A DNA stretch of 64,000 nt from Herbaspirillum sp. Sphag64 (GTDB taxonomy: Bacteria; Pseudomonadota; Gammaproteobacteria; Burkholderiales; Burkholderiaceae_D), in NCBI RefSeq assembly GCF_014192645.1, contig NZ_JACHYE010000010.1:62001-126000 (forward strand), read 5' to 3'. The notes below the pieces were generated by a model. The model was not told the origin of the DNA and searched no databases. It saw only the letters and a program-made list of their open reading frames with translations. This document shows positions 12,537 through 54,297 of the stretch, piece by piece; the first letter of the stretch is position 1, and every line of letters starts with the position of its first letter. A program made the translations under genes and the position numbers.

Positions 12537-12917
12537 TTACACCGCAGCGTCCATCGCTTCCATGTCGTTCAGGCACTCCACCTGCCGCCGCGCCTCATCG
12601 CGCAACAAACCAGCAGAGGCAATCGACATGCGCATCAACTGATCGGCCAGCACAATGCCAATTGCTGGTGCTGCCTTGTGAGCAGGCTCAGCGTCTTCAT
12701 TGGCTTCGCGTTCGAGTTTGCTGGTATAGATCAATTGCAGGCAAGCCTGAATGCCGGTGGAGATATCGAGCGTGGTCTCCAGCAAGTTGCCATACAGGCT
12801 GCCTTGCTGGATGCCTTCTATCCAGTGAAAGTCTTGGTGGGTAGGATCGGGATGGTGTTGATTTTGTTGTTGTTCATCGTCGTGCGCGGTGCTGGCATTA
12901 CTGTCAATGTGGGTCAT
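12537..12917 (-). CDS. Hypothetical protein downstream of a structured leader RNA
   Basis: A 126-residue protein that I do not recognise. Its N-terminus is hydrophilic and rich in His, Gln and Asp (DDEQQQNQHHPDPTHQD); the middle is helical (GNLLETTLDISTGIQACLQLIY) and the end is helical with KAAPAIGIVLADQLMRMSIASAGLLRDEARRQ. There is no signal peptide. The start at 12917 has GGAGG 5 bases upstream; the frame runs 21 residues further into the leader. It resembles small orphan proteins of Pseudomonas and relatives in size and composition, but I cannot name a family. Confidence 0.65.
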   Translation of the reverse strand: MTHIDSNASTAHDDEQQQNQHHPDPTHQDFHWIEGIQQGSLYGNLLETTLDISTGIQACLQLIYTSKLEREANEDAEPAHKAAPAIGIVLADQLMRMSIASAGLLRDEARRQVECLNDMEAMDAAV

Positions 12918-12952: not shown

Positions 12953-13112
12953 GCCTCAAGGGTGAGGGTGGCGGGCACAAGACAGGGTTGACGAACCGGA
13001 CATACGATCAGAACCGGCATACCCGAAGGTATCCCTGCCCAGGCCCGCCGTAGAGACGTGCAAAGACAGGGCGAAAAAAACGCGTCGACAAAGGACGCGG
13101 CATTTCGCCGAT
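12953..13112 (-). ncRNA. Structured leader RNA element (copy A)
   Basis: Read on the minus strand, two elaborate structures precede the gene at 12917. The first is GGCGAAA...TTTCGCC (13070-13109) enclosing hairpin CGCGTC/GACGCG followed by seven T. The second is a long helix GGCGGGC...GCCCGCC (12970-13049) with an inner helix GGGCAGGG/CCCTGTCTT, a TTCG-capped hairpin ATACC/GGTAT, and a CCGG/CCGG hairpin. The copy at 50680-50812 has the same order of helices with different stem bases, i.e. compensatory changes. Short conserved words are CTAYGG, TTCGG, GCCGGTT and CAACCCT. Confidence 0.7.
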
Positions 13113-13180
13113 CGTATGTAATAGGTCGTCAAACCTGACTCCCTTTTTGTTGGGAGCGCGTCAAGAATACCGGGGGGTAA

Positions 13181-14337: not shown

Positions 14338-15198
14338 ATGAAAATCCTGAACACGCTTGAAGAAGATTTTCCTTGCCCTCCGTCTACAGCGGTCGAACCG
14401 AGGAAGTTTTATGAGGCATTCCTTAAAGCTGACGCGATCCTTGCCGCTGCGCCAAAAAAATATCGCGAGACAGTCGAAACTCGCCTACCGGAGTTGATGA
14501 GCTTTATCTATCACGGCGGCGATGCTGCGGCAGCGCTCTTCCGAAAACGGGATGACGCATCAGAGGTGCTGATCAATCTATGGCTGTCCTCCGTGAGGCG
14601 AGCAGCGGGATGGTATGTCGCAGCTAACTCACTTCCTTCGTTCAAGGGCTTAGATAAGTCAATCTACACCGACATACCCAAGAAATTCAAGGATGCAGCA
14701 AGACTTCCCGATATAGGACCTTATTTGGCAGATTATGGCATCGTTATAATTTGGGAGGAGTCAATTCCCTCAATGAAGCTTGATGGCGCTGTATTCTCGC
14801 TCCCTTCTGGACACATAGTTGTTGCACTCAGTTTGAGGTATGCGCGATTAGATCATTTCTGGTTTACCTTGATGCATGAGCTCGCGCACGTGATATTACA
14901 TGCCGATCAATTAGATAACCCAATTCTTGATGACTTCGATGTTGAGACCGATAGTCTTGTGGAAAAACAAGCTGACCGCCTTGCTTCGGATAGTCTAATT
15001 CCTCGAAATGAATGGCGTAGCTGTCCAGCTCGTTACACCAATTCTGTAAACGATATTATCAATTTTGCGGAACAGTTAGGTATTGCACCCCAAGTCGTGG
15101 CCGGGCGTCTGCAGCGAGAGCAAAAGCGGTACGATCTGTTCTCCGAAATCATCAATAAATACAACGTGCGAGATATATTGAATGGCACTGAACTATAA
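14338..15198 (+). CDS. ImmA/IrrE family metallo-endopeptidase
   Basis: A 286-residue predicted zinc peptidase. The active-site helix is LMHELAHVILH (HExxH) with a downstream EKQADRLASDSLIP supplying the third ligand, exactly the ImmA/IrrE (COG2856) arrangement. The N-terminal 150 residues are helical without an obvious helix-turn-helix, so it is not a standard HTH-ImmA fusion. Relatives cleave repressors or antitoxins to switch on mobile elements or stress responses. It overlaps the next gene by 17 bases, which suggests coupled translation. The target may be encoded in the cassette, but no repressor is visible. Confidence 0.87.
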   Translation: MKILNTLEEDFPCPPSTAVEPRKFYEAFLKADAILAAAPKKYRETVETRLPELMSFIYHGGDAAAALFRKRDDASEVLINLWLSSVRRAAGWYVAANSLPSFKGLDKSIYTDIPKKFKDAARLPDIGPYLADYGIVIIWEESIPSMKLDGAVFSLPSGHIVVALSLRYARLDHFWFTLMHELAHVILHADQLDNPILDDFDVETDSLVEKQADRLASDSLIPRNEWRSCPARYTNSVNDIINFAEQLGIAPQVVAGRLQREQKRYDLFSEIINKYNVRDILNGTEL

Positions 15199-16258
15199 CT
15201 ACACGCCCTTTTTTAAATTCAAAGGTAACGAGGTCGCAGGCCTCTCCATGCTGAATAGTAGGCTGAAGGAAGAGCTCACCCCGTTCTTTGATTTTGCACG
15301 CAAAGATGGAATGAGTCGCCTTGATTTTGAAAAATCAGTTGCGGTGTGCGCGAAAAAAGCCAAAAAATATCTCAAAGAATTTTCGTATATATTTATTGAT
15401 TCATTCGATATTCCAGATTCAATAGCTTACGCAACAACTCCAAACTGTAGAGTTATTATTGAAGAATTTTTTGACTTCGAATACGTTCCTGTTATTGGAC
15501 TGGACCGCGCGGCCAACCATAATAAAGCTATTTTTGATGCAAAGGCGAAGGGGGAGATAATTTCCGACAAAGTCGCGATACGATTTCAGCCGGAGGAATT
15601 CTCGTCGTTCAATCTGATTGAAAGCGAGTTGTTGGACCTCATCAGAAAAGGAACAATTTTTTTTTCAGACTGGATTTTCATATTTGACTGTCGGGTGTGC
15701 CTGCAGAGTAATCGACTGAAGCTTGCCAGCGAGATCGCAAATTTTACCCTATCTGCTGATAAAGCCTTTGAGGTCGGGAAGTACATTGTAGTGGGGTCTT
15801 CAATACCTGCATCGATTACGGATATCGCCAAGCCAAGTGATGAGTCGCTAGTGCCGAGAGCCGAACTCGAAATTTTTCATACCGCGCAATCTATGGCAGA
15901 GGGAATTGTCCTGTCGCTTGGCGATTACACCATCGTCAGCCCACTCTACTCCGATCTTACAATTGCGCCCGAATTGCTACTCAGTGTGACAGCACCCAAG
16001 GTTTTTTATACGTACGAACATCAACATTACATCGCTAGAGGAGGTCGAATAAAAACTGGTGGCTATGGTCAATATGATTCAATCTGCGTGGAAATTTCCC
16101 AGAAGAGCTTTTATCGAAAGTCTCACTATTCTTGGGGCGATAATTTTATTCAAGAACGCGCAGATGGGAAAGGAAGTAACAATGTCACCCCTTCAACAAT
16201 CCTGAAGCCAACGATATGTGCTCATATTGAGTATATGTCACGGGATTATCCGAAGTAA
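15182..16258 (+). CDS. Beta protein / sce7725 family protein
   Basis: A 358-residue protein. The N-terminal YTPFFKFKGNEVAGLSML matches the start of the phage 'beta protein' (sce7725) family, which opens with YxPxLKxKxgExxAL. The body is alpha/beta with no membrane segment and no catalytic motif that I can assign. In other genomes this family often sits beside sce7726-type nucleases, as here. It overlaps the peptidase gene by 17 bases and, tail to tail, the sce7726-like gene by 74 bases. The molecular function is unknown; involvement in phage conflict is inference. Confidence 0.75.
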   Translation: MALNYNYTPFFKFKGNEVAGLSMLNSRLKEELTPFFDFARKDGMSRLDFEKSVAVCAKKAKKYLKEFSYIFIDSFDIPDSIAYATTPNCRVIIEEFFDFEYVPVIGLDRAANHNKAIFDAKAKGEIISDKVAIRFQPEEFSSFNLIESELLDLIRKGTIFFSDWIFIFDCRVCLQSNRLKLASEIANFTLSADKAFEVGKYIVVGSSIPASITDIAKPSDESLVPRAELEIFHTAQSMAEGIVLSLGDYTIVSPLYSDLTIAPELLLSVTAPKVFYTYEHQHYIARGGRIKTGGYGQYDSICVEISQKSFYRKSHYSWGDNFIQERADGKGSNNVTPSTILKPTICAHIEYMSRDYPK

Positions 16259-46042: not shown

Positions 46043-46118
46043 GCGGCTGTAGCTCAGTGGATAGAGTATTGGCCTCCGAAGCCAAGGGTCGCTGGTTCGA
46101 TTCCAGCCAGCCGCGCCA
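46043..46118 (+). tRNA. tRNA-Arg (anticodon CCG)
   Basis: A full cloverleaf: acceptor GCGGCTG/CAGCCGC, D arm GCTC...GAGT, anticodon stem TTGGC/GCCAA with loop CTCCGAA (anticodon CCG, codon CGG), T arm GCTGG-TTCGATT-CCAGC, discriminator G and encoded CCA. Its last 54 bases recur at 54244-54297, so it is the insertion site of the element that follows. Confidence 0.96.
46065..46118 (+). repeat. attL, 3' end of the tRNA-Arg gene
   Basis: These 54 bases are identical to 54244-54297, spanning the anticodon loop to the CCA. The intact tRNA here is retained by the left junction. Confidence 0.85.
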
Positions 46119-46199
46119 CTAATTTGTTTTAAATCAAGCACTTACCGTGAATGAGGCGGACAGCGTGACGCCTCAATACTCGTATTATACGTCTCTCAG

Positions 46200-46217
46200 T
46201 GTGCCAAAATTGTGCCA
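46200..46217 (+). repeat. Subterminal repeat (left), candidate integrase arm site
   Basis: TGTGCCAAAATTGTGCCA, itself two TGTGCCA units, is identical to 54172-54189. It lies 81 bases inside attL in the same orientation as the copy near attR. The rest of 46119-46414 holds no gene. Confidence 0.5.
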
Positions 46218-46414
46218 GAGTTCATGGGCTTGAAAGCCTGTACTGGCCTCTCTTTCCAGCTATCGCGTGGTACCCGGTTTAGCCTCAAAATCACCCTCCG
46301 ACCAAAAATTGCAGCGATTTTTTACGGGGACACCCGCGCCCTTGCCGCGCTCAGAAGTCCCCATGCCGCCCTTTGAGAGTATTGGGAGCGGCATCATTTG
46401 TTAGATATAAAACA

Positions 46415-46816
46415 TTACTGTGTGAGTGTCGGGGGCGTCTCAGTTGCCGTTGCCGTTGGAGCCTTCTTTGCCCCGGCTGATACACATCCCTTGTCTTCGT
46501 ATAGAGCTTGGAGCCTCTTGTAGCGTGCTATGGCTGCTTTGGCTTCGACGGAATGGGCATCACTAGTATCCATGAAAAACCACGGGACGATAAGGAATGC
46601 ACCAGCGACCCCAAGTCCGACATTTTTTGCAACTTGGCCGTTTACGTCGGAATCACTAATCAGCTTCTGATTCTGCATATCTTGCATTTCGTTCTCAATA
46701 CTTCTGCAACTCTTGGTGTCGTCACCTATCTGTGACAACTGGACAGGGTTAGGAGTGGTGTGTACACAAGCCGTCAGAGTGAGCGCTGTTGCTATGGTCG
46801 TTGCTATTCTTTTCAT
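46415..46816 (-). CDS. Putative lipoprotein
   Basis: A 133-residue protein with a lipoprotein signal (IATTIATALTLTACVHTTP; lipobox LTAC). The mature part has a Cys pair region (DDTKSCRSIENEM..), a hydrophobic Gly/Ala stretch (NVGLGVAGAFLIVPWFF) and a Thr/Ala/Pro-rich end. Similar small lipoproteins occur in phage and plasmid accessory regions. Single gene near the left end of the element; function unknown. Confidence 0.8.
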   Translation of the reverse strand: MKRIATTIATALTLTACVHTTPNPVQLSQIGDDTKSCRSIENEMQDMQNQKLISDSDVNGQVAKNVGLGVAGAFLIVPWFFMDTSDAHSVEAKAAIARYKRLQALYEDKGCVSAGAKKAPTATATETPPTLTQ

Positions 46817-46942
46817 ATTCTTTCCATATTGAAGTTATTTATCACTGACAGCAATTTGTCAGGATAGGCTAACAATTGTAACAATAAGTTACTTTTGTCT
46901 TAATGATAATTTTCGTGTGGCGGTAATCAAAGGACCGTTTCT

Positions 46943-47035
46943 TTACCAGTTAGTCTGCTCTATGTAGAGTGGTAATAAAGTCCTTGTAAACAAATTGATT
47001 ACCAGTCATAATTATTTCCACCTTTAATTACCAGT
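46943..47035 (+). repeat. Three TTACCAGT repeats before the serine recombinase
   Basis: TTACCAGT occurs at 46943-46950, 46999-47006 and 47028-47035, with a near-inverted AGTGGTAA at 46968. The last copy reaches the ribosome-binding region of the recombinase gene. They may be recombinase binding sites (res-like) or autoregulatory operators. Confidence 0.45.
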
Positions 47036-47044
47036 GGAGATGGT

Positions 47045-47647
47045 ATGACCCGCGCCTTCCTTTACGCCCGTGTATCGACTGCGGAGCAGACAACCGATAA
47101 CCAAGTCCTCCAAGCGGCTCAGGCCGGGTACGTCATCGAACCGCACCGAGTTCATTCAGAGACCATCAGTGGCACTGTCCCTGCAATGGAGCGGCCTGAG
47201 TTCGTCAAGGTGGTCTCTAAGCTGGAGCAGGGGGACATGCTGGTGGTAGCGAAGCTGGACCGACTGGGGCGCAATGCTGCCGATGTAGACCGGACAGTAG
47301 AGATGCTGAGGCAGATGGGCGTCCGGGTAGTGGTGCTGGACCTGCCAGTGATGGAAGTGACCAGTGCAGCCGGTGAGCTGGTCCGCCGGATGTTCGCAGC
47401 CTTTGCCCAGTTCGAACGGGATCAACTGGTGGAACGGACCCTTGCAGGGCTGTCTAGGGCCAAGGCAGAGGGCAAGGCACTGGGCCGCAAGGATGCCCTT
47501 GCTGTGCTCGCTGAGAAGCGAGGTATCAAGCTGCCTCAGTTGCACACGGAGATACGACAGAAGCTTGCAGGCGGTGCTACGGCACGGGGGCTAGCCAAGG
47601 AGTACGGGGTATCGCATCCAACGATACTCAAGGTGGGGCAGCAGTAG
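47045..47647 (+). CDS. Serine recombinase (resolvase/invertase family)
   Basis: A 200-residue small serine recombinase. The catalytic domain has ARVSTAEQTTDNQ with the nucleophile Ser, then KLDRLGRNAADVDRTVE with the conserved arginines and FAQFERDQLVERT. The C-terminal helix-turn-helix is TARGLAKEYGVSHPTILKVG. Such enzymes resolve cointegrates or invert DNA. It lies within the tRNA-integrated element; repeats just upstream could be its sites. Length is normal. Confidence 0.93.
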   Translation: MTRAFLYARVSTAEQTTDNQVLQAAQAGYVIEPHRVHSETISGTVPAMERPEFVKVVSKLEQGDMLVVAKLDRLGRNAADVDRTVEMLRQMGVRVVVLDLPVMEVTSAAGELVRRMFAAFAQFERDQLVERTLAGLSRAKAEGKALGRKDALAVLAEKRGIKLPQLHTEIRQKLAGGATARGLAKEYGVSHPTILKVGQQ

Positions 47648-47782
47648 CGGTAGTGAAGGTAGGCACACAGTCCATCAGGGCCAGTCCGAGCAATCCGGCT
47701 GGCCTTTTCTTTGGTCGATCAATATGGGGTAAGCATTTCGGTCAGTTATAAGACACACGCCCATCAACCATGAAGGAGGACC

Positions 47783-47995
47783 ATGACAGCAGCATCGGTA
47801 TTCGACGGTACTACCCATCCGCTTGAGCATAACGAGGTAGAGCGGCATTACTTCCTGTACACGTTGCAGAAGACATCTAGGAGCGGCCCCAGCGCTTACC
47901 GTAGAGCAATCGAGGCAGCTACAGGCGGTCTACCTACGTGGGCCATGAGAGGCAAGCCGGGGCGTAAGCAGCAATCAACCAAGGAGCAACTATAA
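47783..47995 (+). CDS. Small hypothetical protein
   Basis: A 70-residue soluble basic protein, unrecognised. AAGGAGG lies 4 bases upstream of the ATG, one of the best ribosome sites in the element, supporting translation. The C-terminus GKPGRKQQSTKEQL is positively charged. It is followed by a small frame with its own ribosome site but an ACG start. Confidence 0.6.
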   Translation: MTAASVFDGTTHPLEHNEVERHYFLYTLQKTSRSGPSAYRRAIEAATGGLPTWAMRGKPGRKQQSTKEQL

Positions 47996-47997
47996 GC

Positions 47998-48135
47998 ACG
48001 ACAGGTACTACTCATATCGGTGGCCGTCTGAGTACGTCTCAGCAAGAAGCCATTGCCCAAGCAGTAGCGCAACATGAAGAAGAACAGGCGTTTATGGTGC
48101 AGGTACGGGTTGTGTACCGGATGTTGAACAGGTAA
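47998..48135 (+). pseudogene. Small frame of 45 codons with ACG in place of a start
   Basis: An open frame encoding TTGTTHIGGRLSTSQQEAIA and continuing to NR. AAGGAG, inside the end of the preceding gene, lies 11 bases before the ACG. It looks like a short coupled gene whose ATG has mutated to ACG, or which uses a rare ACG start. No function recognised. Confidence 0.35.
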
Positions 48136-48198
48136 CAGGCTTCGCAGCCAGCATTACGGCAGCGTTCGCACCAGATGCGCGGGTAGTACCAGTACATG

Positions 48199-48837
48199 CT
48201 AGGCGGCGATGGGCTTTGCTACTGCGGTATCACCGTGCTTGACCCAGAGCTTCTGGATACCGATGACACCCTTGCCGGTGATGAGCGTCTTACTGTACGC
48301 CTTGCGTAGCCGATGAATCCGGTCGTACCAAGTACGCTCTTGCAGCTTGAACCAGCCACGATCAACATAGACTTGGTACGGCTCCGTTGATGGGTACGGC
48401 TTGATGATGCCCAGCTCGCGCAGGAAGTTGTACAAGCGGCCTCGACCACTACCAAGTACCTTGGCTACCTCGGACATCTCCTGCCCGTTGTTAGCCTCCA
48501 CGAGTGCGTCATGGACTGCCACCTTCGGTGCCTGCTCCTGCACCTTGTTCTCCAATGCGATGACTTGCTCGGTGTAGTTCAGGAGCAAACCGCGTAATGC
48601 TGCCGGGTCACTCAGGGTTGGCTTGGCCTCAAGCTCTTGCCATCGGTCAATGATCCTTGCCCGCATCTGTACGCTGTAGCCAGATACGAGAATCAGGGTT
48701 TCGCGCTTGGGTAGCAGGTACTCTGGATTTTTCTTACCGTTGGCTGCTGTGTAGTAGCCCTCAAAACTGAGGGTTCCCCCTCCACCGTACAAGTCAGCCA
48801 GCATCGTGAGGATAATCTCCCGCCACGATTGCGTCAT
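48199..48837 (-). CDS. Phage regulatory protein, Rha/KilAC antirepressor type
   Basis: A protein of about 212 residues from the ATG at 48837 (AAGG 6 bases upstream). The first part, LLPKRETLILVSGYSVQMRARIIDRWQELE, is the end of a Rha domain. The C-terminal half, APKVAVHDALVEANNGQEMSEVAKVLGSGRGRLYNFLRELGII, is a KilAC (ANT) DNA-binding domain. The first Rha helices look shortened, so it may be N-terminally truncated. Such proteins modulate phage lytic decisions. The 48906 start would add residues overlapping the upstream gene. Confidence 0.82.
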   Translation of the reverse strand: MTQSWREIILTMLADLYGGGGTLSFEGYYTAANGKKNPEYLLPKRETLILVSGYSVQMRARIIDRWQELEAKPTLSDPAALRGLLLNYTEQVIALENKVQEQAPKVAVHDALVEANNGQEMSEVAKVLGSGRGRLYNFLRELGIIKPYPSTEPYQVYVDRGWFKLQERTWYDRIHRLRKAYSKTLITGKGVIGIQKLWVKHGDTAVAKPIAA

Positions 48838-49090
48838 GCTCTGCCTTGCGGAGAGCGGAGAGGCGGGATTCAATGTCGTACTTATCCCACCAAGCACCGG
48901 ACCCATCCGGGTTAGTTACCTCTGGCTTGTACTTCCTGAAGAAGCTCATGGCTCTAGATACGGCTGGGTAGTGATCCCGCCGTCCTCGCCGGTGGTCGGT
49001 CTTGATAGCGAGGCAGCAGTAAATGTCATGACCGATAGCGATCCTGTGTCGGGCCTCGGCCAGCACTGATGATGCTTTCATGTAGGTCAT
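48794..49090 (-). CDS. Small hypothetical protein, paralogue of the upstream remnant
   Basis: A 98-residue protein with YPAVSRAMSFFRKYKPEVTNP and WWDKYDIESRLSALRKAEHDA; I do not know its family. The upstream remnant at 49087-49335 encodes a similar end (FFNKYKPEG, WWPRGDIQSRLSALAAA), and its stop overlaps this ATG (ATGA), so they were a duplicated, coupled pair. It overlaps the start of the KilAC gene by 44 bases. Confidence 0.6.
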   Translation of the reverse strand: MTYMKASSVLAEARHRIAIGHDIYCCLAIKTDHRRGRRDHYPAVSRAMSFFRKYKPEVTNPDGSGAWWDKYDIESRLSALRKAEHDAIVAGDYPHDAG

Positions 49091-49335
49091 TGACCTGCCT
49101 CCTCTGCGTCCTTGATAGCAGCCGCGAGTGCCGAGAGCCGGGATTGAATGTCACCACGAGGCCACCAGATATCGTTCTGGTCTTTACCCTCGGGCTTGTA
49201 CTTGTTGAAGAATGCCTGTGCAGCGTTGCGGTCAGTTCTTAACCGTGATGCCGCTATGGAGATGGCCCGACAACCGACACATCCGGTGATGAAGGTGACG
49301 CTACGGGTAGGGTGGTTCAGGCTAAAGCCAGGTAA
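49087..49335 (-). pseudogene. Start-less paralogue of the 98-residue protein
   Basis: The frame encodes about 80 residues ending NAAQAFFNKYKPEGKDQ...WWPRGDIQSRLSALAAAIKDAEEAGQ, homologous to the downstream gene product. A stop codon precedes the frame without any ATG, GTG or TTG start in a suitable position. Its TGA overlaps the next ATG. Confidence 0.5.
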
Positions 49336-49419
49336 TTTGATGTGTTAGAGTATTCCGCTGTCCCAAGACCACATTGCTGGTCTCTATTGTTACTAGGCCT
49401 GATACTTAGGAGAGGGTTC

Positions 49420-50004
49420 ATGAAGGTGTTGCCCCGTCGAAGGCTATTGCTCAGAAACCGATTCCAACTAAAGCCATTAGATAGCCCTGCAAATAAAAGC
49501 TGGATAGAGCGGTGGCTGCCCTACGTAGATATTACGTTGAAGTTCGCCTCAATTATTGCTTTTGTAGTGGCTGGATTGTGGGCTTATCGTCAGTACGCTG
49601 TGGCAGGAAGTGATGATTGGATGGTCAATCTAGATATTCAGACGGAGGTTCTTCCTTACAAGGACGACTTGAGGTTGCTTGTAATTCATGTCAAAGCAAC
49701 GAATCCACGCAGTGCGTCCATTGACTTCGAGAAAAGTAAGAAGGACTCATTTAAGTTATCGATACGTAAGCTCCCAGTAGGCCTGCAGGCTGGTGAAGCT
49801 GTAGACGTTGATAATGGAGAAGCAATTAACGAGTTTGACTTTCTCCCTTCTGAAGATGTCTTTAGCGTTCTTCCCGGCGCGGAGCAGGACAGTAACGCGA
49901 CTATTGTTCTCCCTGTCAATGCCGTTGTCTCATTGTCGGCAGTAATTTCCAAGTACAACGCAGATTACTGCGTTAAAAATAGTCTTGTCCAAGTTAAGCC
50001 ATAG
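49420..50004 (+). CDS. Hypothetical single-pass membrane protein
   Basis: About 194 residues from the ATG at 49420 (AGGAGAGGG upstream); the frame opens earlier without support. A basic N-terminus (LPRRRLLLRNRF) precedes one membrane helix (ITLKFASIIAFVVAGLWAYRQY), then a soluble beta-rich domain of about 140 residues. It has no known motif. It resembles in layout the protein at 52508. An anchor facing the periplasm is likely. Confidence 0.65.
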   Translation: MKVLPRRRLLLRNRFQLKPLDSPANKSWIERWLPYVDITLKFASIIAFVVAGLWAYRQYAVAGSDDWMVNLDIQTEVLPYKDDLRLLVIHVKATNPRSASIDFEKSKKDSFKLSIRKLPVGLQAGEAVDVDNGEAINEFDFLPSEDVFSVLPGAEQDSNATIVLPVNAVVSLSAVISKYNADYCVKNSLVQVKP

Positions 50005-50088
50005 GTGGTCATGTTAGTCAGCTAATTGTCAGTCTTTGGGCTGTATGCGATTATCCCCAATCAATATAAAAAATAATGGGGAAAATAT

Positions 50089-50550
50089 ATGAATATTAAA
50101 GCTGCACTGGTGCTGGCCGCCGCACTACACCCTTTAAGTAATGTCGCAGCGTCTGAAAAATGGACAGAGGTAAGCAAGGACAGTATCGCAACAATGAAAC
50201 TCGATACGAGATCAGTAAGTCATGTCGGTGAATACGTCAAAGCATGGATTTTGGTGGATTTTGCTCGTCCTAACAAAATGGGGCTACGGTCGCAGAAAGT
50301 ACTACAGTTATATTCTTGTACTGATCGAACGGTAGAATTCACACAGATAGTCAACTACCGCAAGCCGAATGGAGCGGGGCCGGGTGACTCTGTGCAATCA
50401 AATACACCTTACAGACAGGCGGTGGTGCCCGACACCGCTGGCGATCTTATGCTTCGTTCTGTGTGTCAAGTAATCGCAATACAGGATTACTACCAAGGGG
50501 ATAAGAATGCTATACCTCCAGACGTTCATAAATGGCCCTTCACTGATTGA
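50089..50550 (+). CDS. Secreted protein, surface-adhesin E-like
   Basis: A 153-residue protein with a signal peptide (AALVLAAALHPLSNVAASEKW, cleavage after the second Ala). The mature part starts WTEVSKDSIATMKLDTRSV and continues with WILVDFARPNKMGLRSQKVLQLYSCTDRTVEF, the pattern of the adhesin-E-like family (secreted, often with two Cys). GGGGAA lies 7-9 bases before the ATG. Probably periplasmic; role in the element unknown. Confidence 0.72.
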   Translation: MNIKAALVLAAALHPLSNVAASEKWTEVSKDSIATMKLDTRSVSHVGEYVKAWILVDFARPNKMGLRSQKVLQLYSCTDRTVEFTQIVNYRKPNGAGPGDSVQSNTPYRQAVVPDTAGDLMLRSVCQVIAIQDYYQGDKNAIPPDVHKWPFTD

Positions 50551-50679
50551 CAACCTGTGGCCTAGCTTAGCTAGTCCTCCTAATTCATTTTCCTCTTGAC
50601 CGACGTAAACCGTCACGCGTAAACTTCTATTTGTCGCGGATAAAGACGTGACCGGGTTTGATCGCCCGACTAACTCAAG

Positions 50680-50812
50680 GCGGACAACCGCCAACTCGGC
50701 GGTATTTTTTCGTCCGTACCATGCTGTGTCTTCTATGGGCAGCGGTGGTGGGGAGGCTTCGGCCTGCCGGTTTCCTTGAGTACCGGTCGATCAACCCTAT
50801 CATCTGCTGCCC
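50680..50812 (+). ncRNA. Structured leader RNA element (copy B)
   Basis: Same architecture as 12953-13112. Helix CGGAC/GTCCG (50681-50716) encloses hairpin ACCGCC/GGCGGT followed by TATTTTTT. Then come CTATGG and a long domain closed by GGGCAGC/GCTGCCC (50737-50812), with a 10-bp inner helix GGTGGTGGGG/CCCTATCATC (with wobbles), a TTCG-capped hairpin AGG/CCT, and a GCCGG/CCGGT hairpin before CAACCCT. It lies 51 bases before the ATG of a small unknown gene, as in copy A. Confidence 0.72.
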
Positions 50813-50863
50813 ACCTCGTTTGATCGCGGGGTGAGTGGTGTAACTCACTCAAGGAGTCACATA

Positions 50864-51301
50864 ATGACTAGCATCGCCACGCCCGTAAGAAGCACAGCTA
50901 CACCCAACACGCCTGCACGTTCCGTATCCCCAGCAGTCCCGCCCGCAATCCCACGTAAGCAGTATCAGGCAAGCCATCAAGCAAGCCATCACGCACCACG
51001 CCAGCAGCGCACCTTCTCCAATGAGGCAAGTACCCGTGTCTTTATTGACGTTGGTCTATCCGAGGAGGGCGTACAGGCAACGTACCAGCTCGGCCATGAG
51101 GTCGGAGCATCGGCAGCACAGCAGTGGTCCCGCCTCTGCAATCTCCACGAGTACAAGGGCGTTAGTCGCACCCAGTACAGCAAGATGACCGCGACTAGCC
51201 GCATGAATCTCCTCGTTGATCCTGCCTATGGTGAGTGCTTCGAGAGGGGCTTCACGGAAGGGTTCTCCTCGGTCTTCAAGCACGTAGCTGGGAGGAACTG
51301 A
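50864..51301 (+). CDS. Small hypothetical protein after leader RNA
   Basis: A 145-residue protein from ATG 50864 with AAGGAG 8 bases upstream. The first 55 residues are Ala/Pro/Ser/His-rich and probably unstructured (SHQASHHAPRQQRT). The C-terminal 80 residues form a conserved domain with GHEVGASAAQQWSRL, YKGVSRTQYSKMTATSRMNLLVDPAYGECFERGFTEGF. The next gene encodes a paralogous domain. The family is not known to me; the leader RNA suggests post-transcriptional control. Confidence 0.65.
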   Translation: MTSIATPVRSTATPNTPARSVSPAVPPAIPRKQYQASHQASHHAPRQQRTFSNEASTRVFIDVGLSEEGVQATYQLGHEVGASAAQQWSRLCNLHEYKGVSRTQYSKMTATSRMNLLVDPAYGECFERGFTEGFSSVFKHVAGRN

Positions 51302-51304
51302 GCC

Positions 51305-51544
51305 ATGACCGCACCTACGACTACGACATTGAGCATCCAGCCAACCAATGACCCTGACGTTGCTCTTGATATTGATCTTGATATCGCTTATGAGCGAGGC
51401 CAAGAGAACGGTGAGGCTATCGCTAGACAGTGGTGGAACATCAAACGAAGGGGCGATTACAAGCGACTCACTCGCACTCAGTTCAGGGATATGGAGGTAG
51501 CCAGTCACACACGATTGTTATTCGGGCCTGAGTACAGCGAGTGA
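51305..51544 (+). CDS. Truncated paralogue of the preceding small protein
   Basis: 79 residues. YERGQENGEAIARQWW, YKRLTRTQFRDMEVASHTRLLFGPEYSE aligns with the domain of the preceding protein, but the frame stops where the first continues CFERGFTEGF. Homology ends at GAGTG (51539-51543), exactly where the truncated integrase begins. The gene is 3 bases from its paralogue. It probably lost about 20 C-terminal residues through the deletion joining the two. Confidence 0.55.
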   Translation: MTAPTTTTLSIQPTNDPDVALDIDLDIAYERGQENGEAIARQWWNIKRRGDYKRLTRTQFRDMEVASHTRLLFGPEYSE

Positions 51545-52301
51545 GCGCCCTGAGAATAGCAACGGCTTTTGTCGATAGGGGTACAGCCCGGGCCTCTCCG
51601 TTCTTCGTATCGGGGAGGTACGCTGTCTGTTGTTCTAGGTCGATGTACCTCCAATCCAGCTCAATAATCTCGCCTCGGCGCATGGCAGTTTCGACTGCGA
51701 AGGGAATGATAGTCCGTAGAAATCCACCTCTTGCGGCGTTGGCAGCATCCAGCAGGGCGCGCTCTTCATATTCTTTCAGTCGCCTGACCCTACCGCGAGA
51801 ACATTTGGGTTTGGTGATTTGAGCAAATGGGTTTTGTAAAAGATCGAGTCCCCACTCTCGTCGGGCAAGATTGATGATGCGCGACATCATGTGCAGTTCT
51901 CGTGTCACTGTGTCAGGCGCTACCTCTTTCAATCTACAGTCCCGCCATTCAGCGACAATAACTGGACTCAGGCTCTTGATAGGGTAGTTCACTATGTCGC
52001 TACGCAGGATCTTACCGAGCCGGTACTTCTCACTCTCATGGGATTTTTTAGTCGGAGTAACGTCCCGCAGGTAGCGTTCAAAGAACTCTCTGAGTGGTTG
52101 CAGTCCGAACTGCCTATGGGCTTCGATGATAGCCCTTGCTGCACGCTCCTTCACTAGCGGTGCTTCGATTGAATTAATCCATTCGCGGGCCGTCTCCTGC
52201 GTAGGAAACGTCATAGACTGATGAGGATGGTCCTTGAGGCAGACACGGGCCTGATACGATGTCTTCCCTTTACTGTTGACGCGCACTTGAATAAAACCCA
52301 T
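51544..52301 (-). pseudogene. Truncated tyrosine recombinase/integrase
   Basis: About 252 residues from ATG 52301 (AGGAG upstream). The arm-binding and core-binding regions are present (FIQVRVNSKGKTSYQARV..., ETAMRRGEIIELDWRYIDLEQQTAYLPDTKNGEARAVPLS) and the first catalytic Arg (AMRRGE) is intact. The His-x-x-Arg, second His and Tyr are missing, since the frame runs into unrelated sequence after ILRAL. It resembles the intact integrase at 53159, so it is the relic of a second element. Confidence 0.8.
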
Positions 52302-52507
52302 CGCAACTCTCCTTGGTGTTGTGGAAAAAGTTGGGTCAGGTCCTCGTACTAGGTTGCGCCTCTCGGCCCTTATGGGGCGACACCAATGCTTGTACAACGC
52401 ATGCGAGGTGAAGACGTTCAGTATCACACATTCAAACTGGACCACAATTAAACCGATGCGGTTATAGACATGGTTAAATAAGATACGTAATTCAAATAGG
52501 CATAGAG

Positions 52508-53149
52508 ATGTGGTCGAATTTAATGTGGATTTTCTTAAGTCTTGCTTCGGGCGCAGGTCTCACTTGGGTATCTATGTTTGGCGATCCTAGAATATGGGGG
52601 CCTCGGTTAGTTTTTATTACGATTGCACTAGTCTTGATGATGTTGTTCTTTCTCTCAATGGCAGTGCTCGGCTTTTTGCGAAACCATCGCAACTACGGAC
52701 CGATGCTGCGAATTATTGTTGGTCAAGATGGCCCCTACGTGGAAACTGAGAATCACAACGTCTACAACGTGATGAAAACTGTCTATATCGGGGTAAGGAA
52801 CACGGGAGGAGTTTATTTAACCAATTGCAAGCTAGAGTTTGAGACGCATGATAACGGTCGGGAGCTTAAGACATGGCACGTAGATGGCCCATTTAGTCTA
52901 AACCCCGGGGAGCAGCGTTATATCAGTTTGGCTGCTTACGGGGAGCCTATCTCGGTTAATGTTCAAGGTACTCCATCAATTCAGCTAAGCGCACCGCCAA
53001 GTGGCAATTATATGGGGCAGCTTGCCCCAACACTTCCCCTTACAGGTGGTGTTGTTACTCTACGTGCTCGTAGTGCCGAGAGTCAGCCATGCGAAGTTCT
53101 TTGCAAGCTCTGGGTGGACAACGGCAAGCTGTGCTGGGACGAGGTTTAA
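52508..53149 (+). CDS. Hypothetical two-helix membrane protein
   Basis: A 213-residue protein with two membrane helices (about residues 4-24 and 34-56) and then a soluble beta-sandwich-like domain (VYIGVRNTGGVYLTNCKLEFETHD..., PFSLNPGEQRYISLAAYG). No catalytic motif. It lies between the truncated and intact integrase genes and ends 10 bases before the latter's stop, convergent with it. Likely a cargo gene of unknown role. Confidence 0.65.
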   Translation: MWSNLMWIFLSLASGAGLTWVSMFGDPRIWGPRLVFITIALVLMMLFFLSMAVLGFLRNHRNYGPMLRIIVGQDGPYVETENHNVYNVMKTVYIGVRNTGGVYLTNCKLEFETHDNGRELKTWHVDGPFSLNPGEQRYISLAAYGEPISVNVQGTPSIQLSAPPSGNYMGQLAPTLPLTGGVVTLRARSAESQPCEVLCKLWVDNGKLCWDEV

Positions 53150-53158
53150 CTCGATAGG

Positions 53159-54124
53159 TTATTCCAATTTCCGCACCAACTGCGACACGTCCAGATGGGT
53201 GTACCGGTCCAGCATCGCTAATGTCTTATGTCCGGTGATGCGGGCCACCTCGATTACATGCAGTCCCTTTTCGAACAGTCGGCTCGTGGCCTCATGCCTG
53301 AGGTCATGGAACCGCACCCCTTTGAGGCCAGCCCGACTTACGGCCCGGTCAAATGCCTGACTGACCGACGAAGCCGCAAGCGTGAACAGTGGCCCTTCCT
53401 TGGCCTGCTTTAGCTCCCCTATCACGGCAAGTGCCTTAGACGATAGTGGTACAGTGCGAGACATCCCGTTCTTCGTTCTGGGGAGATATATAGAGCACCG
53501 GCTCAGGTTAACGTTTTCCCAGCGTATTGCCAGTAGTTCAGACCGCCGCATTGCAGTCTCTACCGCCAAGGGAACAATCAGCTTCAGTTGTGGCGACTCC
53601 GTAACATTAACTATGCGCTCTATGTCTTCGGGGCTGATCCGGGTTCCTCTTCCGGGTGGTAGGCGGGGGCGGGAGGTCTTCGGTATGCCGTTCGGCAGGA
53701 TGACTCCCCACTCATTGACCGCAAGCACGTAGGCCCGGTGTAACAGGTTCAGCTCATGGGTAACAGTCTGGGGTGATACGGTGGCTAGACGCGTTGCCTT
53801 GTATCTGGCTAGGTCAGCATGACTCAGGTTATGAACATGGTAGCCGCCCAAGGCTGCAAGGAGAGGCTTGGACCGGGAGATATCCGCAGCCGGGTAAGCC
53901 TTCTTTCTGGATTCATCTTTGAGGTACTGGGACAGTATTTCCTGTACCGTAGTGGATTGGCTGCTGGTGCTGCCGATGTAGGTTCCCCGGTGCATCTGGG
54001 CCTCGACCTCGTTGGCCCAAGCAATGGCCGATGATCGTTGTTCGAAGCTCTTGGTTTGGGTGGGGTAGCCTTGCTTGCGGACCTGACACCGCCACATGCT
54101 TCCGCGTTTGCTGATTGTTGCCAT
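53159..54124 (-). CDS. Tyrosine-type site-specific integrase
   Basis: A 321-residue phage-type integrase with all catalytic residues visible: Arg in ETAMRRSELLAI, His-x-x-Arg in HDLRHEATSR, His in GHKT, and Tyr in LDRYTHLD. The N-terminal half contains the arm-binding three-strand sheet (SMWRCQVRKQGYPTQTKSF) and core-binding helices. It lies next to attR and reads inward, so it is the integrase of this element, acting on the tRNA-Arg 3' end. Its start is 48 bases from the subterminal repeat. Confidence 0.95.
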   Translation of the reverse strand: MATISKRGSMWRCQVRKQGYPTQTKSFEQRSSAIAWANEVEAQMHRGTYIGSTSSQSTTVQEILSQYLKDESRKKAYPAADISRSKPLLAALGGYHVHNLSHADLARYKATRLATVSPQTVTHELNLLHRAYVLAVNEWGVILPNGIPKTSRPRLPPGRGTRISPEDIERIVNVTESPQLKLIVPLAVETAMRRSELLAIRWENVNLSRCSIYLPRTKNGMSRTVPLSSKALAVIGELKQAKEGPLFTLAASSVSQAFDRAVSRAGLKGVRFHDLRHEATSRLFEKGLHVIEVARITGHKTLAMLDRYTHLDVSQLVRKLE

Positions 54125-54171
54125 GCGATTCTCTCCGAATCGCTGTCTGGGTTATCCCGGTTTGTGCTGAC

Positions 54172-54189
54172 TGTGCCAAAATTGTGCCA
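54172..54189 (+). repeat. Subterminal repeat (right), candidate integrase arm site
   Basis: TGTGCCAAAATTGTGCCA, identical to 46200-46217, lies between the integrase start and attR. Two TGTGCCA units in tandem suit a multi-site arm-binding region. Confidence 0.5.
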
Positions 54190-54194
54190 AAACC

Positions 54195-54297
54195 GTAGCT
54201 CAGTGGATACAACGCCGCGTCCCGTAAGGGATGCAAGGCCGAAAGTATTGGCCTCCGAAGCCAAGGGTCGCTGGTTCGATTCCAGCCAGCCGCGCCA
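54195..54297 (+). repeat. attR with an interrupted tRNA-Arg copy
   Basis: 54244-54297 repeats the last 54 bases of tRNA-Arg(CCG). Upstream, 54195-54209 (GTAGCTCAGTGGATA) also matches the tRNA D-arm, but about 34 unrelated bases separate the two parts and the 5' acceptor strand is absent. It cannot fold as a functional tRNA. Confidence 0.8.

Follow-up and report, generated by a model that had tools for sequence, protein, structure and literature searches.

The locus raises the question of what one and the same RNA does in front of two different small protein genes of a single genome. In the window, i.e., the whole stretch of 64,000 nucleotides analysed here, taken from Herbaspirillum sp. Sphag64, one copy of this RNA lies inside an element integrated at a tRNA-Arg gene and another copy lies outside it; the original prediction took the RNA for a portable expression module or for the target of a host or phage factor. 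Using the Rfam covariance model of the C4 antisense RNA (RF01695, gathering score 45), we identified both copies as members of this family: the element copy at 50731-50818 on the + strand (64.3 bits) and the other window copy at 12964-13055 on the − strand (64.9 bits). The existence of two copies of one RNA architecture was thus confirmed, as was their similar distance from the start codon (45 nt from the C4 end at the element copy and 46 nt at the other window copy), and the downstream ORFs were indeed unlike, with 145 aa (50864-51301) and 126 aa (12537-12917), respectively. A riboswitch or another type of leader was rejected after the RF01695 match; besides C4, no other Rfam family was matched at these loci, c4-a1b1 and IsrK both staying below their gathering scores. 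In phages P1 and P7, C4 serves as the immunity RNA, and processing by RNase P to about 77 nt is a criterion for RNAs of this kind.

The element copy is located in an integrated element of 8.2 kb (46065-54297, no strand assigned). This element is bounded by perfect 54-bp repeats of the 3′ part of tRNA-Arg (46065-46118 and 54244-54297) and contains two tyrosine integrases; its cargo also includes a resolvase and a KilAC-domain antirepressor. The interval initially delimited for the RNA, 50680-50864, comprises the terminator, the C4 and the Shine-Dalgarno region; it does not include the promoter-like boxes, the hairpins of the leader or the target upstream (50658-50680).

The element copy, with all features on the + strand, was characterized, from the upstream to the downstream end, by the presence of promoter-like boxes distinguished by eye (TTGACC and TAAACT, with a spacing of 18 nt, 50596-50625); an IsrK-like leader RNA (50633-50709); a small hairpin (50653-50668) whose loop carries the target b1 (TTGATCG, 50658-50664); the target a1 (ACTCAAGG, 50673-50680); a competing, antiterminator-like hairpin (GGCGG-ACAA-CCGCC, 50679-50692), whose first two bases are the last two of a1; and a terminator-like hairpin (ACCGCC/GGCGGT) with a T-run (50687-50710), the tail of which is the T-run already flagged in the original prediction. 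The C4 RNA follows, with its segment a (CCTTGAGT, 50774-50781) and segment b (CGATCAA, 50788-50794), and then a target b2 (TTGATCG, 50820-50826), a target a2 covering the Shine-Dalgarno site (ACTCAAGGAG, 50847-50856) and the 145-aa ORF, which is the predicted C4 target gene. The C4 segment CCTTGAGT is complementary to a1, and its pairing with a2 is longer by at least one base; CGATCAA is complementary to both b1 and b2. At the other window copy, on the − strand, we found b1 (TTGACGA, 13126-13132), a1 (ACATACGATCGG, 13108-13119), a terminator-like hairpin with a T-run (13074-13099), the C4, for which b2 was not found at the start site, and the 126-aa ORF, which belongs to a small-protein family present at 22 loci.

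In the genome from which the window was taken, 24 C4 loci were found above the cut-off, a number that may be a lower bound, with 150 of 715 first-look candidates scored. The order of the leader was the same at all 24 loci: a first hairpin, the short hairpin with b1 in its loop, a1 and the terminator-like hairpin, followed by the C4. A TTGAC box was observed by eye in a comparable position at 23 of the 24, and the ORF starts 42-56 nt after the C4 at 23 loci, the last one (L018) being cut by the end of a contig. For most solitary copies, the shared unit extended from about 110-215 nt before the C4 start to about 400-530 nt after the C4. Sharing with another locus reached further upstream at L011, L014, and L030 and further downstream at L033; at the element copy and L015, the common stretch covered just 100-120 nt or so before and 150-165 nt after the C4. 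Fourteen of the 60 relatives searched also carry C4, with at most eight in one genome (23 of the 26 C4 matches were used; two without a locus and one at a contig end were left out). Among genomes sampled evenly across the class, C4 was present in at least 28 of 370, the window's own genome included; no more than 11 candidates were scored per genome, which makes these counts lower bounds, and the best-scoring 28 loci were used.

In its own upstream leader, each of the 24 loci has an a1b1 target that matches segments a and b of its own C4. When duplex energies were calculated with the 12-nt loop a and the 7-nt segment b (the targets of L018 and L027 being set by hand), the own target was the best for all 24 C4s and the own C4 the best for all 24 targets, with a mean energy of −20.2 kcal/mol for own pairs versus −5.4 kcal/mol for foreign pairs. 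Two of the 552 foreign pairs came within 3 kcal/mol, both involving L012 and L020, which have loop a in common. With loop a alone, the own target was the best in 20 of 24 cases. A yes/no pairing test was positive for 24 of 24 own versus 22 of 552 foreign pairs in this genome, for 20 of 23 versus 28 of 506 in the relatives, and for 27 of 28 versus 24 of 756 in the class-wide sample. Moreover, 23 distinct loops a were counted among the 24 loci. Where the ORF belongs to the main protein family, the C4 scaffold had a mean identity of 0.79 in class A (12 loci) and of 0.92 in class B (10 loci; both classes are described below), and loop a, in the best register, one of 0.54 and 0.51, respectively. 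Hardly any response of one copy to the C4 of another is predicted. The element copy is thus a genuine C4 locus inside a mobile element and one of 24 self-matched copies. The idea of a generic expression module, or of a passive target of some factor, was abandoned, since C4 itself appears to be the regulator, with segments complementary to sites in its own leader.

Downstream of a1, a hairpin resembling a terminator and followed by a T-rich tail was observed in all 24 leaders. In 23 of them, a competing hairpin of at least 4 bp, whose start coincides with or adjoins the end of a1, takes up part of the 5′ arm of the terminator, versus 5.9 expected from a shuffled upstream segment; the scripted helix begins two bases past a1 at L014, and L028 has no helix of 4 bp. 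Among 26 further loci (23 from relatives, plus P1, P7, and D6), a1b1 was detected in 23 and a terminator also in 19, with a competing hairpin in 17 of the latter (5.4 expected); by script, a1b1 was missing at three of these 26 loci and the terminator at four more. The 28 class-wide loci yielded a1b1 in 26, a terminator in 26 and a competing hairpin in 23 (7.4 expected). The leader anatomy is common to P1, P7, and D6. As judged from sequence, the leader of the element copy and most of the others contain the two mutually exclusive hairpins, one a terminator and the other beginning at the antisense target, that define an antisense transcription attenuator. The terminator was more stable than the competing hairpin at 22 of 23 loci (mean of −10.3 versus −7.0 kcal/mol), so that the switch would have to act during transcription and not at equilibrium. 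At the element copy, the two hairpins are close in energy (−10.9 kcal/mol for the terminator and −9.4 kcal/mol for the competing hairpin), and the competing hairpin drops to −2.3 kcal/mol when a1 is occupied.

We propose that the C4 locus is probably an antisense-controlled attenuator that would act as a self-limiting silencer. It would be read in the order promoter, leader with a1b1, terminator, C4, a2b2 (at the element copy) and controlled ORF, and C4 freed from earlier transcripts would pair in trans with new ones. In a first step, suggested by the anatomy, C4 would bind the leader through segment b at the b1 loop and through segment a at a1; pairing at a1 would seize the 5′ arm of the competing hairpin, the terminator would form, and transcription would stop before the C4 and the ORF. 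In a second step, suggested by the matching sequence, C4 would cover the Shine-Dalgarno site of readthrough transcripts and block their translation, as has been reported for P1 and P7. Ten loci, among them the other window copy, would use the first step only. The terminated leader would be an IsrK-like RNA, which could in turn sponge C4. The ORF would be on when a copy enters a cell devoid of matching C4, and off once C4 accumulates. In attenuation of the pT181 type, an antisense RNA likewise seizes the antiterminator arm and the terminator forms; here, however, the antisense RNA would be encoded downstream of the attenuator, on the same strand and in the same transcript. The premature termination published for P1 occurs downstream, in icd, and is Rho-dependent, which counts against attenuation in the leader. 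An attenuator or sponge reading of C4 or IsrK was not found in the titles, abstract openings and passages covered, subscription literature being outside this scope.

Overall, two classes of locus were observed: class A, with b2 near the Shine-Dalgarno site (14 loci out of 24, including the element copy); and class B, without b2 (10 loci out of 24, including the other window copy). At the class A Shine-Dalgarno sites, loop a of the own C4 was the best of 14 in 11 cases only. At the class B start sites, the own loop a was the best for none of the ten C4s and for one of the ten sites. Class B appears unusual because b2 was found at 26 of the 28 class-wide loci and one of the two misses (L145 and L149) is due to parsing, L149 being misparsed and having b2 by eye. 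The b2 target was also absent at L050 and L054 (genome G001) and at L055 and L057 (genome G004), in two other genomes of the genus, and no exact b2 was found at L045 (G031). We infer that class B would be an attenuator-only variant of the C4 locus.

These classes bear on whether C4 might act solely on translation at the Shine-Dalgarno site, the mode of the P1 model, with a1b1 as a decoy through which the terminated RNA mops up C4. The frequency of b2, both among the 24 loci and class-wide, speaks for such a mode of action; a sponge RNA would also require a1b1 and a terminator, and IsrK is described as a short terminated RNA active in trans in passages of PMC4825925. However, the ten loci that have neither b2 nor an own-specific a2 keep a matching a1b1, which would leave a decoy nothing to relieve, and the overlap between a1 and the competing hairpin was well above expectation in three sets of loci. 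We consider control of translation alone improbable, and retain attenuation in the leader as the preferred explanation.

The leader of the element copy spans the whole IsrK model (RF01394) with 39.8 bits, below the cut-off of 50, and the leader of a C4 locus from another genome (L059) reached 50.1 bits. With the c4-a1b1 model (RF03163, cut-off 46.7), the element copy scored 21.0 bits (50620-50672). The leaders of P1 and D6, with 35.1 and 46.5 bits, respectively, against the IsrK model, both pass the c4-a1b1 model. According to passages of PMC4825925, IsrK of the Salmonella prophage Gifsy-1 is a terminated leader followed by STnc1160, a processed RNA about 80 nt long, and by a small ORF, an arrangement like that observed here. 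When supplied in trans, IsrK raised a Gifsy-1 transcription fusion 8-fold and a translation fusion 139-fold, and a C4 sponge would explain both effects (PMC4825925). The authors of that study liken IsrK to P4 SeqA and suggest a CI-like action for STnc1160; in their text, the terms 'c4 RNA' and 'phage P1' are absent (PMC4825925). Their published model, by which they explain their data and which counts against an attenuator, is activation of orf45 through direct pairing (PMC4825925). At our loci, the RNA that follows the leader is a C4. We infer that STnc1160 may be a C4 that is titrated by IsrK. In a table of PMC12189769, isrK and C4 of Xylella are given side by side on one strand as separate RNAs; they look like one locus. 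The CI RNA of P4, with seqA and seqC, is also comparable by description, as an antisense RNA that arises by processing of a leader transcript, with complementary sites up- and downstream and with termination of transcription (as outlined in PMC4825925).

The original prediction held that one RNA design controls unrelated small genes. The unit, consisting of promoter-like boxes, leader, C4 and ORF, does recur at 24 places in the genome; listing the genes downstream, as had been suggested, revealed ORFs of a single small-protein family (108-133 aa) at 22 of these loci (21 were aligned; the 22nd, L018, is cut by the contig end), and in other genomes antirepressors or a primase-like gene at several C4 loci. 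The element copy carries the 145-aa ORF in place of a family member. The family was present in 9 of the 61 genomes searched, all of one genus; its relatives include a Duganella MAG and Herbaspirillum sp. RV1423. A further match, in a Rhizobiales record (L064, one of six matches in genome contigs), was set aside as apparently spurious, with 43 codons between stops and no C4. Matches of the family were at chance level in Pfam (21 aligned members), in the PDB (profile), in PHROGs (window member), and in NCBIfam and PADLOC (window member and L011), and no relatives were found in the viral contigs searched. The structure predicted for the window member from an alignment of six sequences comprises two long helices, with a mean pLDDT of 73.9 and values below 50 for residues 1-34; with Foldseek, this model gave no match at E ≤ 0.001 in the viral and PDB libraries.

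The median dN/dS was 0.17 in class A (50 of 55 pairs usable) and 0.21 in class B (44 of 45), values which indicate that the family proteins are under purifying selection. For the 21 complete members, no co-oriented ORF of at least 110 aa started within 150 nt downstream. Given this low dN/dS and the lack of a near co-oriented ORF downstream, the protein itself seems to matter. Of the 25 ORFs located after C4 in the class sample, the six that looked like antirepressors were compared with Pfam, and all six matched antirepressor families (Rha twice, KilA-N, Bro-N, AntA, and P22_AR_N). Moreover, in genome G023, a relative detected with the family profile (E 1.2e-7 in a small ORF set) lies between the C4 and a Toprim/AAA primase-like gene, with a 4-nt overlap with the latter. 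The family thus occupies the position of icd in P1 and P7.

P7 Icd, which has the same position, can reversibly inhibit cell division according to its record note; together with the dN/dS values and the downstream context, this would fit an arrangement similar to a type I toxin-antitoxin system, with the small protein as the toxin and C4 as the antitoxin RNA. Such an arrangement would be compatible with an attenuator. However, none of the scans (Pfam, PHROGs, NCBIfam, and PADLOC) matched a toxin or defence family, the predicted helical hairpin gives no specific hint, and several copies with an open frame lack an above-threshold C4, which argues against strong toxicity. We regard a toxin-antitoxin function as rather doubtful. 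Regarding the copies without C4, the family profile gave 40 matches in the genome, fragments included, with 22 at C4 loci and 18 elsewhere. In the 17 stretches spanning these 18 copies, no C4 reached E 0.1, and two of the stretches had weak matches to isrK or c4-a1b1. In the 11 of these stretches that were inspected by eye, the a1b1 leader was kept at L096-L100 and part of a C4 with b2 at L095. These leader or C4 remnants indicate that the RNA was sometimes lost and the gene retained.

Such losses would also be expected if the 24 copies were relics of dead prophages or satellites without a present role, and elsewhere C4 does precede antirepressors or a primase-like gene. However, the match between C4 and its own leader is kept at 24 of 24 loci despite 23 distinct loops a, and the proteins appear to be under purifying selection; we judge it quite improbable that the copies are mere relics. 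The predicted preference for mobile regions was weakly supported: within up to 6 kb on each side of the 24 loci, integrases were identified at two, the element copy and L015, with a shortened one at a third, L017 (blastp with four recombinase queries against ORFs of at least 110 aa; ORFs with long X runs or strong overlaps were left out). A tRNA was present in 5 of the 24 fetched stretches. At L017, the shortened integrase (184 aa) is of the P4 type, shares 52% identity with its counterpart at L015 and lies about 3 kb upstream of a solitary C4. Downstream of the C4 at L015 (3125-9215) are an ORF of 126 aa and a DUF927/Toprim protein of 900 aa, and a P4-type integrase and a tRNA-Leu are close by; L015 may be a satellite-like element, possibly under C4 control. 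For one locus, we compared the flanks with other genomes of the genus: the flanking gene on one side was matched in 31 of 33, and the flanks lay close together without the unit in the seven genomes compared on both sides, the insert being partly N. No comparable empty site was present among the matches listed for the flanks of L016 and L028, and no clean empty site was obtained for solitary units at the loci compared.

Compared with C4 of P1 and P7, the loci described here share the covariance-model match, two pairing segments, an upstream a1b1, an a2b2 at the Shine-Dalgarno site and a small ORF downstream. They differ in that a single genome holds 24 self-matched copies, ten of them without a2b2, in that a lineage-restricted small-protein gene mostly takes the place of icd-ant downstream, and in that the score with RF03163 stays below the gathering score. 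There is a precedent for such an expansion in Acinetobacter baumannii, for which 21 C4-like Group 1 sRNAs that differ mainly in loop a are described in one genome (PMC5320573). Phage or host RNAs were proposed as their targets (PMC5320573), whereas each C4 matches its own leader here. In the present case, C4 loci might have left mobile elements and formed a chromosomal multigene system, with 22 helical proteins under private antisense RNAs and ten copies as pure attenuators. Each copy would then be its own incompatibility group, silencing only incomers of the same specificity, as private immunity or addiction units, and an attenuator plus sponge would also underlie P1 C4 and Salmonella IsrK; we put this scenario forward as a tentative possibility. 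Silencing by C4 is of a known kind; the putative attenuator-only copies and the large set of predicted private specificities are new. The workings of C4 were established with P1 and P7, and the 24 natural variants present here in one genome, with one scaffold and differing specificities, are suited to the study of how crosstalk between short antisense loops is avoided. The anatomy also gives the named a1b1 element a concrete putative job, that of an attenuator, and joins IsrK and C4, which were named separately, into one type of locus; attenuator-only copies would allow the two control steps to be separated.

Concerning the other genes of the element, the 145-aa ORF had no match in Pfam, NCBIfam, or PADLOC and no relatives among the viral contigs or plasmids searched; its best match, a weak one, was phrog_5604 of PHROGs (E 0.0045). 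It is followed by a 79-aa ORF (51305-51544, + strand), a weak relative that resembles a partial copy of it (34% identity over 56 aa). The KilAC-domain antirepressor (48202-48906) is on the − strand, opposite to the C4, and could be a partner once served by the C4 switch. A related element (L172) was found in another species of the genus (G012), where the C4 lies about 0.4 kb before the integrases. Identity between the two elements was 29% for the resolvase, 30% over 76 aa for the 145-aa ORF, 56% over 100 aa for the antirepressor, 55% for the membrane protein, and 51% and 61% for the integrases. In the window, an ORF for a predicted membrane protein (52508-53146) lies between the two tyrosine integrases (51486-54124), and the same trio is present in L172. 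Finally, near the other window copy (14338-16258), an ORF with a metallopeptidase-like HELAH motif, observed by eye, adjoins an ORF of 358 aa.
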